Notes under the pieces: model-generated | The model's database searches: none | What the model was told of the DNA's origin: nothing | Seen by the model: only the letters and a program-made list of their open reading frames with translations | In this document: positions 16,243-19,554 of the stretch, in pieces | How the letters are laid out: each line of letters begins with the position of its first letter | How positions within the stretch are numbered: position 1 is the stretch's first letter | NCBI GenBank assembly: GCA_029263335.1 | Contig: JAJCXS010000250.1 | Location: 1-32,046, forward strand | Length of the DNA stretch: 32,046 bases | Reading direction: 5' to 3' | Source of the DNA: Acidobacteriota bacterium | Lineage (GTDB): Bacteria > Acidobacteriota > UBA890 > WLXD01 | Made by a program: the position numbers and the translations under genes

Positions 16243-16581
16243 CTAGGGGCCGCCCACGCGCAGCCGGTTCACGATTGCCCGGACGCCGTCAACGGTGCCA
16301 GCCCTCCTCAGTGCACGACGCACTTCGGCGACACTGGAGAGAAGTCCCGATAGCTCCACGGTTCCCGACGTGACCCTTACGGTGATCGCGCCCGCGGAGA
16401 TCTCATCATCCGCGGCTAGTGCCACCTCGACCGCCTGCTGCAGAACCTCGTCGGGCGGGGCCGCGACTCCCCCCTTGGGAAGGGTGGAACAGGCCGTCAG
16501 CGCAGCAATAAGTAAGAACGGCCATAAATGACCTGGGATGTGTTTTTGGGCTCCCAAGTACCTAATACAGGGCGTTACCAT
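16243..16581 (-). CDS. Small BON-domain lipoprotein
   Basis: This 112-residue exported protein has a hydrophobic signal (about 20-30) and a lipobox ending LTAC, with the lipidated cysteine at residue 31 if the start is 16581. The mature part is one BON domain (bacterial OsmY and nodulation): GAITVRVTSGTVELSGLLSSV followed by the glycine motif in TVDGVRAIVNRLRV. BON domains bind phospholipid or peptidoglycan-linked partners, and single-BON lipoproteins are common in Gram-negatives. The N-terminal 19 residues are long for a signal, so a later start is possible. The start region is locally less GC-rich than its neighbours. It is divergent from the HD-GYP gene. Confidence 0.75.
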   Translation of the reverse strand: MVTPCIRYLGAQKHIPGHLWPFLLIAALTACSTLPKGGVAAPPDEVLQQAVEVALAADDEISAGAITVRVTSGTVELSGLLSSVAEVRRALRRAGTVDGVRAIVNRLRVGGP

Positions 16582-16640: not shown

Positions 16641-17537
16641 ATGACCTTGCCGTGTCAGCACTCCGCAACCCTGGAGAACAAGCCCTTGGCTACCGCGCCC
16701 AGCTCGCTACCCGGATTCGTTGAGCAGAATATCGTCCTGCCGCAACGACTCTGGAATCGCGTGGAGCAGTTCGCCAACGATACGGCGCGTGAACCCAGTG
16801 AGGTCGTGGCCGAGGCTCTACGCCTGCTGATCACCGGAGCCGTGCCGACGGCCTCGACGGCGGTCAGCGGCATCGTCGCGATCGCCGATGCCGTAGAGGA
16901 ACCGGCCGTGGAACCGACCCCGGTGGCCGGGAGCGGCGGCGTCGAGATTCAGCTAGCCGATGTTCACGCAGAGCCGACCGATAGCAAGAAACTGATGGAC
17001 CGCCTCCTTCAGGTCATGGAAACGGTCGACAAGAGAGATGGATTCACCGGGTCCCACTCCGGTGCCGTTACCAAGCTCGCCCTGCAGCTTGGCGACGCCC
17101 ACGGCGTGACGGGTACTGCGCGCGTGGAGTTGGAGCTCGCGGCGCTGGTTCACGACCTCGGCAAGATGCGCGTGCCCGAGGAGATCCTGAGTAAACGGGG
17201 GCGCCTCACTGCCGAGGAATGGGCGCTGGTAAAGCAGTATCCGGAGTTCGGGGTCGAAATGCTCCGCCCGTTCGAGCACCTGCAGGGGGTTCGCGACATC
17301 GTCGAATCGCATCAGGAACGCTGGGATGGCAGTGGGTATCCGCGTGCGCTGGAGGGCGACGCTGTCCCGCTCGCTGCTCAAATCGTTGGCCTCTGCGACG
17401 TCTATGCGGTCCTCACCTCGGAGCGGTCGTACCGGCCGGCCCTCGACACGGACACTGCGCGCCAAACGATCGAGGCCGGAGCCGGCCGCCTGTGGAACCC
17501 GGAGCTGGTTCGCAAGTTGCTGGAAGGGAAGCGCTAG
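16641..17537 (+). CDS. HD-GYP-type protein with RHH-like N-terminus and altered metal ligands
   Basis: HD-GYP domains hydrolyse cyclic di-GMP. In this 298-residue protein, residues about 30-66 (NIVLPQRLWNRVEQFANDT then EPSEVVAEALRLLI) look like a ribbon-helix-helix fold, normally a DNA-binding or dimerisation element. A linker rich in Ala, Val and Pro leads to the HD-GYP domain (about 115-296). Seen there: His139, HDLGK (171-175), RWDGSGYP (227-234) and Asp253. Two usual metal ligands differ: the histidine of the HPxxG motif is Tyr200, and the second of the paired histidines is Gln225. This resembles a reduced, perhaps mononuclear, site. The ATG at 16641 has GGAGGAG 13 bases away; TTG 16686 with a closer GGAG is an alternative. 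The target is unknown. Confidence 0.85.
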   Translation: MTLPCQHSATLENKPLATAPSSLPGFVEQNIVLPQRLWNRVEQFANDTAREPSEVVAEALRLLITGAVPTASTAVSGIVAIADAVEEPAVEPTPVAGSGGVEIQLADVHAEPTDSKKLMDRLLQVMETVDKRDGFTGSHSGAVTKLALQLGDAHGVTGTARVELELAALVHDLGKMRVPEEILSKRGRLTAEEWALVKQYPEFGVEMLRPFEHLQGVRDIVESHQERWDGSGYPRALEGDAVPLAAQIVGLCDVYAVLTSERSYRPALDTDTARQTIEAGAGRLWNPELVRKLLEGKR

Positions 17538-17646: not shown

Positions 17647-19554
17647 ATGCGCCTCCTCAAGATCGGCATCGCGAACATCAATACAACGGTCGGCGCCGTG
17701 GAGTCCAATACCGACACCATGATCGCCCTGGCGGCGGCTATGACACACCAGGGCGTGAGCGTCGCGAGCTTCTCGGAACAGGTCATTGGCGGATACCCGC
17801 CCGAGGATCTCGTGCAGTGGCGTGCGTTCCTGGCCAGCCAACGCCAGCAGCTCGGCCGCTTTGCCGCGGCCACCGAAGCCTCTCCGCTGGTGTCGGTCGT
17901 CGGGCTGTTGGTGCCGGTCGGTGGGCAGATCTTCAACGTCGCGGCAGTACTCCACAGCGGTCAGGTCCTCGGCCTGGTTCCGAAGGAAAAGCTCCCCTCA
18001 TACAACGTCTTCTACGAAGGTCGCACGCTGTCGCGCGGCAGCGCTTACATGGAGCTCGACGCCGGCGGCGACCGCCTGGGCGACTTCGTGTTCGACTTCG
18101 AGTTCGGCCGGCTGGCGGTGGAGGTTTGCGAGGACGCCTGGTCACCGGACGGGCCCATGCGGCGGCGCTGTTACTCGGGCGCGGAGATTGTAATCAACGT
18201 CTCCGCGTCGCCGTATCGAGTGGGAATCACGGAGACCCGCCGCGAGATGTTGGCCACGCGCTCGGCCGACAACGAGGTCACGCTGGTCTGGGCTAACGCC
18301 GTGGGGGCCCAGGATGGTCTGATCTACGATGGAGGTGGTTACGTCTTCCAGAACGGGCGGCGCGAGATGACGGCCCCTAGCTTTCGTGAGGGGTTCAGCA
18401 CCTGCGTTGTCGATCTGGACCGGACGGTGCGGTTGCGGACCGAGAACACGACCTGGCGCACCGACTGTGAGGGCTTCCTCGAAGAGTGCGAGCCGATGCG
18501 GGCCATACTGTCTGAAGCGCCTGTGGCCGACTCTTCTTCGCTGCCCTACCCCACTCCCGACAGCGACTCGTTCTTCTTGCCCGCTGCCGGCCTGGAAGCG
18601 AGTGCCGCCCGTCCGGCCGCGCTCGACGAACTGCACGAGGCGCTCGCCTTCGGCCTCAAGGACTACTACTGCAAAACTGGAGCCTTCCAGTGCCTGGGCG
18701 TCGCGCTCTCGGGTGGGCGCGACTCGCTGCTGACCTTGCTGGTGGCGTGGCGGGCGGCCGCCCTGATCGTCGAACAAACTGGCGAGGGAGACGCGGCGGC
18801 GCTCATCCACGCGTTCTACATGCCGAGCCGGTTCTCGACGGAGGGCACTCGCGATGCCGCGGCGACGATCTGTGCCGAACTCGGCATCGACCTGCGCGTC
18901 GTCCCGATCGACGATGCTTTCGAGCGAGAACTGGACGCCACGCGCCTGATGCTCGGGGGTGCCCAGCCCACAGGAATCACCGAACAGAACGTCCAGGCAC
19001 GAATTCGTGCGCAACGGATGTGGAACTGGGCGAACAGCTCGGGTGCCCTCTTCCTGCAAACCGGGGACATGAGCGAGAAGGCGGTCGGCTACACCACCAT
19101 CGGCGGCGACCTGGAAGGGGCCTTGTCGGTGATCGCCAACGTCCCCAAGACCGTTGTCGTGGCGTTGCTGGAGCGGCTACTCGAAGTGCATGGATTCGGC
19201 GGTATCGCGGCGTCCCTGGCCACCGAGCCGGGACCTGAGCTGACAACCGCCCAGGAGGCTGAAAGCGAGCTCATGCCGTTCGCGGTCCTGGACGCATGCC
19301 TGTGGCTCTACGCCGGGGAGAAGCTCGCCCCAGTGGAAGTGGCGCGAGCTCTTTGCTCGGTGTTCCCGGAACGCGACGCGGATCAACTCCGTACCTGGGC
19401 GCTGAGCTTCGCCACCATGTTCTCTCGCTCGATCTACAAATGGGTCCAGGCGCCCCTGGCGCTGCACGTCGGATCCCTCGATCTGGATCGCGAGCGGGCG
19501 CTGCAACTGCCCGTCGTGCAGTCGGACGAATGGGCCTCCGACTCGGACGAGTGA
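17647..19554 (+). CDS. nadE: Glutamine-dependent NAD+ synthetase (two-domain)
   Basis: This 635-residue enzyme makes NAD+ from deamido-NAD+, ATP and ammonia released from glutamine. The N-terminal nitrilase-fold glutaminase shows the catalytic triad: Glu44 (SFSEQ), Lys115 (PKEKLPSYNVFYEGR) and Cys161 (EVCEDAW). The C-terminal synthetase has the PP-loop ALSGGRDS (353-360), where SGGxDS is the ATP pyrophosphatase motif. It then has the deamido-NAD+ site TGITEQNVQARIR and TGDMSEKAVGYTTIGGD. The ATG at 17647 is where conservation starts; the frame is open for 107 codons upstream without homology. Domain order and length are normal for the two-domain type. It is a single gene between the HD-GYP gene and convergent selC. 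Confidence 0.96.
   Translation: MRLLKIGIANINTTVGAVESNTDTMIALAAAMTHQGVSVASFSEQVIGGYPPEDLVQWRAFLASQRQQLGRFAAATEASPLVSVVGLLVPVGGQIFNVAAVLHSGQVLGLVPKEKLPSYNVFYEGRTLSRGSAYMELDAGGDRLGDFVFDFEFGRLAVEVCEDAWSPDGPMRRRCYSGAEIVINVSASPYRVGITETRREMLATRSADNEVTLVWANAVGAQDGLIYDGGGYVFQNGRREMTAPSFREGFSTCVVDLDRTVRLRTENTTWRTDCEGFLEECEPMRAILSEAPVADSSSLPYPTPDSDSFFLPAAGLEASAARPAALDELHEALAFGLKDYYCKTGAFQCLGVALSGGRDSLLTLLVAWRAAALIVEQTGEGDAAALIHAFYMPSRFSTEGTRDAAATICAELGIDLRVVPIDDAFERELDATRLMLGGAQPTGITEQNVQARIRAQRMWNWANSSGALFLQTGDMSEKAVGYTTIGGDLEGALSVIANVPKTVVVALLERLLEVHGFGGIAASLATEPGPELTTAQEAESELMPFAVLDACLWLYAGEKLAPVEVARALCSVFPERDADQLRTWALSFATMFSRSIYKWVQAPLALHVGSLDLDRERALQLPVVQSDEWASDSDE

Follow-up and report, generated by a model that had tools for sequence, protein, structure and literature searches.

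The nearest described systems are the HD-GYP enzymes PmGH and PA4781, the HD-GYP receptor DvhD, and the RHH protein CdbA. In the published account of PmGH, the metal ligands common to both HD-GYP subgroups are given as H189, H221, D222, H250, H276, H277, and D305; phosphodiesterase activity is reported to be essentially gone in the H250A, H276A, and H277A variants, with D308A behaving similarly, and mutants of the GYP motif, R314, and K317 are reported to show no substantial drop in activity (PMC4159591). The same source describes R314 and K317 as touching one guanine of the bound c-di-GMP and Y285 as touching a phosphate, and it presents Tyr or Phe at the E185 position as a common state of the HD-GYP family (PMC4159591). 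DvhD from Desulfovibrio vulgaris is described as a metal-free, non-hydrolyzing HD-GYP receptor for c-di-GMP, whose dimerization changes on binding and whose c-di-GMP site uses R650, Y652, and R653 (PMC13090378). CdbA from Myxococcus xanthus is reported to be an RHH protein of 67 amino acids in which DNA binding and c-di-GMP are connected, the nucleotide being bound by the RHH domain itself (K8, S10, R27, and R30) (PMC7156744).

The locus compared here with these systems belongs to an Acidobacteriota bacterium (GenBank assembly GCA_029263335.1, contig JAJCXS010000250.1), from which a stretch of 32,046 nucleotides, referred to as the window, was analyzed. Its protein has the same fold, the HD and GYP motifs, and the same guanine-contact residues as PmGH (PDB 4MCW) and PA4781 (4R8Z); however, these two enzymes keep H250 and H277, whereas our protein has Tyr and Gln at those positions, plus Ala at the position of D308. 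With DvhD (9RBZ and 9RC0) it shares an HD-GYP fold in which metal ligands have been lost, and R650, Y652, and R653 in the L10/11 loop of DvhD align with Arg262, Tyr264, and Arg265 of the target in HMMER alignments, a likeness to be read alongside the retention of R314 in all 93 domains that we aligned. DvhD, in contrast, sits in the membrane as a receptor, has PAS and dCache domains, and has lost the HD motif (SQ), while the target keeps both HD and GYP and adds an RHH-like part. CdbA is without an HD-GYP domain, whereas the target has one. Among the titles and abstract openings covered by our literature search, which did not take in the 2022 survey of HD-GYP architectures by Galperin and Chou, no description of an RHH-HD-GYP fusion was found, nor any work on HD-GYP architecture in Acidobacteria.

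Gene and Domain Organization

The first-pass annotation had placed the gene at positions 16641–17537 of the forward strand, and this frame is indeed open, coding for 298 amino acids. The comparison of orthologs moved its start: translation probably begins not at ATG 16641 but at TTG 16686, 45 bases further 3′, giving a protein of 283 amino acids, because the start codons of the two orthologous genes, TTG for L018 and ATG for L019, are in the same register, and GGAGA lies just 5′ of the TTG in the window. Residues are numbered according to the 298-residue reading (P0001), from which 15 is subtracted to obtain the numbering of the 283-residue protein (P0002). The features are collected in Table 1.

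Table 1. Features of the RHH-HD-GYP locus and its neighbors, in window positions
Feature	Position	Strand	Evidence
BON-domain, lipoprotein-like gene, divergent, marking the slot	16243..16581	-	Pfam BON 2.2e-12
RHH-HD-GYP gene, probable start shared with orthologs	16686..17537	+	TTG/TTG/ATG register, GGAGA upstream
RHH-like domain (P0001 residues 26–66)	16716..16838	+	Profiles, helix prediction, dN/dS
Variable linker, predicted to be disordered	16839..16976	+	pLDDT, ortholog comparison
HD-GYP domain	16977..17534	+	Pfam, HMMER alignment, Foldseek
Tyr200 codon (TAT), PmGH H250 position	17238..17240	+	HMMER alignment, pattern scan
Gln225 codon (CAG), PmGH H277 position	17313..17315	+	HMMER alignment, pattern scan
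NAD synthase gene, downstream	17647..19554	+	Pfam NAD_synthase 2.2e-26

Metal Ligands of the HD-GYP Domain

The HD-GYP region matched Pfam HD_5 (residues 128–284, E 2.2e-33) and Pfam HD (residues 137–256), and a Foldseek search with the predicted model of the target returned 4R8Z at E 2.6e-10 and DvhD at rank 3 (E 2.0e-9), with PmGH also matched. The correspondence between target residues and those of PmGH, V-cGAP3, PA4781, and DvhD was taken from HMMER alignments. Both the HD diad (H171-D172) and the GYP motif (G232-Y233-P234) are present, and His139, His224, and Asp253 are kept, together with Lys175 and Asp133. Tyr200 falls at the position of PmGH H250 and Gln225 at that of H277, so that every residue assignment made earlier from the letters alone (His139, His171-Asp172, His224, Asp253, Tyr200, Gln225, and GYP) was borne out by the alignment with characterized enzymes. 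The PmGH iron closest to the GYP loop is presumably coordinated by H250, H276, and H277, although the published account lists the ligands together. The target holds five of the seven ligands common to both subgroups, with H250 and H277 replaced; in addition, Phe135 occupies the E185 position and Ala256 the D308 position, the latter being Ala or Thr in the three short orthologs and Asp in the two long paralogs. The Tyr and Gln substitutions are kept in all five RHH-HD-GYP members, as are Arg262, Tyr264, Arg265, and the GYP motif. Between orthologs, the HD-GYP region showed a dN/dS of 0.12–0.14, with dS saturated.

Two other explanations were ruled out. The Tyr and Gln are common to all five genes in three assemblies, which excludes chance or sequence error, and dN/dS values well under 1 exclude pseudogene decay, the ratios being rough as dS is saturated.

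The N-Terminal RHH-Like Domain

An RHH-like N-terminus had been proposed from the sequence of the target, and the evidence for it comes mainly from relatives. The target alone gave no Pfam RHH match. The N-terminus of one paralog (P0005) exceeded the Pfam RHH_1 cut-off (23.0 versus 20.5 bits, E 7.3e-5), while a second paralog (P0006) matched RHH_1 at 0.023 and an ortholog (P0004) matched RHH_5 at 0.0044, both under the cut-off. A five-sequence profile searched against the PDB matched CopG (9kkd, E 1.1e-4) and the antitoxin EndoAI (E 0.0012), matches that depend on the paralogs included in it, and a profile of the three orthologs reached CopG at E 0.65 only. When the ortholog-only profile was run against 6207 frames, the RHH piece of a sister-genus genome (G008, 9.3e-12), a stand-alone RHH-like frame (6.2e-6), and a paralog (2.5e-5) came out on top, a result to be taken as a ranking and not as an unbiased test, the set having been enriched for RHH loci with the five-row profile. 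Fifteen target and ortholog loci were left out of this set together with L131, which by its place is the long paralog of G001; the same paralog was kept as L009.

AlphaFold placed two helices where they would be expected, at about residues 35–47 and 52–65, with low to moderate confidence, and the model of a 52-residue RHH monomer had a pLDDT of 76. Searches with this monomer gave no significant fold match: Foldseek returned nothing under E 1, and VIA-align 2 reached a best Z of 3.0, with MatP, Reg576, and TraM, which we take to be RHH proteins, among unrelated rows; the monomer models count neither for nor against the fold. The N-terminus is likely an RHH domain, as argued by the paralog above the RHH_1 cut-off, the five-sequence profile, and the ortholog ranking, although the case for the target taken alone is weak. 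The RHH region was the most constrained part of the protein between orthologs (dN/dS 0.029 and 0.054 for two pairs, the third giving an infinite dS and hence no ratio) and the linker the least conserved (0.12–0.61), dS being saturated in both. The linker also showed a pLDDT below 50 at residues 52–98 of P0002. By inspection, acidic residues outnumber basic ones in the RHH piece.

Distribution in Acidobacteriota

The RHH profile matched 55 of 396 Acidobacteriota genomes, a set in which the class of the target is represented by 9 genomes, and the RHH-HD-GYP fusion was found as five genes in three genomes of one genus. Beyond these five fusions, the frames with RHH matches either had no room for both domains or carried a C-terminal RHH piece (G012 and G130); the last two were ruled out as further fusions since their frames extend upstream of the C-terminal RHH. 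The fusion was also sought in the GTDB genome collection by means of short peptide patterns reaching close relatives only. The genome of the target contains six matches to the protein at E ≤ 0.001, itself counted, and the remaining two genomes of the genus, which correspond to named Acidobacteriota MAGs, each have a whole-protein ortholog (78% and 70%). The target's own genome (L003) and G001 (L009) also encode a longer paralog that shares the Tyr and Gln and whose long linker is acidic and rich in proline.

The two substitutions had been given equal weight in the first-pass annotation; both are real and conserved, but the Gln is common in the phylum and the Tyr is specific to the RHH fusion. 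The pattern H-Q-E..[DN]G.GYP, with Gln at H277, occurred at 91 sites in 83 of the 396 genomes, and its H-H-E version in 353. Tyr at the H250 spacing occurred at five sites in three genomes, exactly the five RHH-HD-GYP genes, in a search that required a fixed spacing and the exact GYP motif and that other spacings would escape. Acidobacterial HD-GYP proteins with Gln for the second paired His commonly keep the His of HPxxG: among 60 loci examined, His was found at the H250 position in 30 of 30 HQ loci, as well as in 27 of 30 HH loci, the three exceptions having a different spacing with a His nearby. Because of the 91 sites in 83 genomes and the His retained at H250 in every HQ locus, Gln at H277 on its own is, by these counts, ordinary, whereas Tyr at H250 together with an RHH domain is not. 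Across 93 aligned domains, a non-random set fetched with the target and by the HQ and HH patterns, H250 was Tyr in five (all RHH) and Ala or Val in five relatives from the class, D308 was Ala or Thr in three (the short RHH proteins), R314 was Arg in all 93, and the K317 position was Arg or Lys in 89. Five duplicate RHH-ortholog loci (L018, L019, and L041–L043), loci L131–L144, and frames whose domain was too short, cut off, or without a GYP-type anchor were left out of this set.

Descent of the HD-GYP Domain

In the maximum-likelihood tree, the five RHH members formed one branch (98/93), nested in a 17-row clade (100/99) otherwise composed of HD-GYP domains from the longer proteins of the class, two of which (L002 and L004) were GAF-GGDEF-HD-GYP proteins in a domain scan of these two. 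By this placement, the HD-GYP domain derives from class-specific GGDEF-HD-GYP proteins. The closest HD-GYP relatives of the RHH members are the class-specific GAF-GGDEF-HD-GYP proteins (L002, L031, L004, and relatives), which, as scanned in L002 and L004, have GAF and GGDEF domains where the target has RHH. Canonical domains (L002 group), Gln-only domains (L031 group), the RHH members with Tyr and Gln, and domains that combine Ala or Val with additional losses (L004 group) all fall within this one clade.

The Ala/Val proteins formed a separate branch (82/92). They make up a second degenerate group (L004, L012, L013, L036, and L035), in which H250 is Ala or Val and four of the five members have Cys or Thr at H276.

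Genomic Neighborhood

Within the genus, the target is situated between the divergent BON gene and the NAD synthase gene, beyond a gene for a PEMT/ICMT-type methyltransferase and heptosyltransferase genes. The BON-gene order is the same in L018, L019, L139, L140, and L142, and the NAD synthase gene lies downstream in both orthologous loci too. In the same slot, the sister-family genomes G003 (L140, C337) and G007 (L142, C125) bear a PilZ gene beside the BON gene (E 2.7e-7 and 1.1e-9, respectively), and the sister-genus genome G008 (L139:1-369, C450) bears an RHH piece followed almost immediately by a HisKA-like H-box, with a HisKA match of 0.012, below the Pfam cut-off, in a gene that runs off the contig end. 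No comparable gene was found in the slot at the G005 and G006 loci, and G004 gave no match for the anchoring methyltransferase. As a positional hint, these contents suggest that the slot carries a signaling protein. The gene of G008 is possibly an RHH-histidine kinase.

The long paralogs (L155 in G000 C246 and L156 in G001 C2) are located on the same strand as, and downstream of, a gene for an AcrB-type RND pump (Pfam ACR_tran, E 3.2e-222 and 1.1e-229); in G000, a beta-propeller-like gene separates pump and paralog. Both PilZ and GAF-GGDEF-HD-GYP proteins are encoded in the host genome, which makes c-di-GMP signaling plausible in this organism. Upstream of the target, a repeat search and a three-way alignment found no conserved operator outside the BON coding part, the conserved upstream stretch being the coding sequence of the BON gene itself, and a promoter scan of the upstream region found none. 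With no conserved site outside that coding part, an upstream operator was rejected as evidence of autoregulation.

Possible Functions of the Protein

Three options had been put forward for this protein, namely a mononuclear enzyme, an altered nucleotide specificity, or a sensor, and the last is the best supported. We consider it close to an even call that the protein is a one-component regulator in which a non-hydrolyzing cyclic-dinucleotide sensor controls the RHH domain. The HD-GYP pocket would bind c-di-GMP or a related cyclic dinucleotide via Arg262, Arg265, and the GYP Tyr233, and the bound nucleotide would no longer be hydrolyzed. Binding would alter the pairing of the HD-GYP domains, and the flexible linker would relay this change to the RHH dimer, which may then hold its target differently, be it a partner or DNA, the latter possibly in the gene's own divergent promoter region. 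The sensor is favored because Arg262, Arg265, and Tyr233 are kept and because DvhD, whose loss of ligands is worse, is a proven non-hydrolyzing receptor. Further sequence evidence points the same way: the H250 and H277 ligands are lost in all five members, and D308 in the three short ones; Tyr at H250 appears, among 396 genomes, only alongside the RHH fusion; and RHH is the most constrained part, in a slot that elsewhere holds PilZ (G003 and G007) or an RHH-HisKA-like gene (G008). Against a sensor, the four-residue mononuclear HD site is intact, whereas DvhD lost HD itself, and conservation of the guanine-contact residues discriminates weakly, since all 93 aligned domains have Arg at R314. The weak RHH assignment of the target alone and the more acidic than basic character of its RHH piece also argue against it, as does the lack of a conserved operator upstream, and the PilZ neighbor is a positional argument only.

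The intact H...HD...D site (residues 139, 171, 172, and 253) is what keeps a mononuclear HD phosphohydrolase among the alternatives, although we judge it unlikely. Such an enzyme would hold one metal in this site and cleave a phosphomonoester or another nucleotide, with the RHH domain bringing it to DNA or to a partner. His139, His171, Asp172, Asp253, Lys175, and Asp133 are all kept, the HD-GYP region is under purifying selection, and whether an HD enzyme acts on phosphomonoesters or phosphodiesters is described as a matter of its center being mono- or binuclear (PMC4159591). The HD-GYP enzymes compared here are, however, described as using two or three metals, and D308, a support of the PmGH center, is lost in the three short members.

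A scaffold, in which the degenerate HD-GYP domain would bind a partner, for instance a diguanylate cyclase or a genuine phosphodiesterase, while the RHH domain would serve mainly for dimerization or nucleoid tethering, likewise seems improbable. Dimerization would be an obvious use for an RHH piece that runs almost directly into a HisKA-like helix, as in G008 (E 0.012), NosR has been discussed as a degenerate HD-GYP protein working through partners (PMC12570481), and the GAF-GGDEF-HD-GYP relatives are encoded in the same genome. Yet apart from the BON and NAD synthase neighbors that the loci share, no gene linked to the target is an obvious candidate for a partner, and the long paralogs adjoin RND pump genes instead.

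That the protein is still a c-di-GMP phosphodiesterase, with Tyr200, Gln225, or other residues replacing the missing ligands, is very improbable: Gln at H277 is common with otherwise canonical ligands (91 sites, 83 genomes) and may be tolerated, and the other pocket residues are family-like, but Tyr at H250 is confined to the RHH fusion, the short members lack D308 as well, and the H250A and H277A variants of PmGH are both reported as inactive (PMC4159591).

Returning to the cyclic-dinucleotide sensor, we tentatively suggest, while holding it somewhat doubtful, that the RHH-HD-GYP proteins are transcription factors of a new class, controlled by cyclic dinucleotides, with an HD-GYP domain that has lost part of its catalytic metal site sensing the ligand for a DNA-binding RHH domain. 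This class would have arisen once, in one acidobacterial genus, by the joining of the HD-GYP domain of a GAF-GGDEF-HD-GYP protein to RHH, in a slot otherwise used by PilZ or an RHH-kinase. If this is true, HD-GYP would count among the domains by which c-di-GMP-responsive transcription factors bind their ligand, and the proteins would offer a case in the HD-GYP family where binding of the nucleotide is naturally uncoupled from its hydrolysis, as well as a tree for testing the stepwise loss of HD-GYP metal ligands within one well-supported clade.
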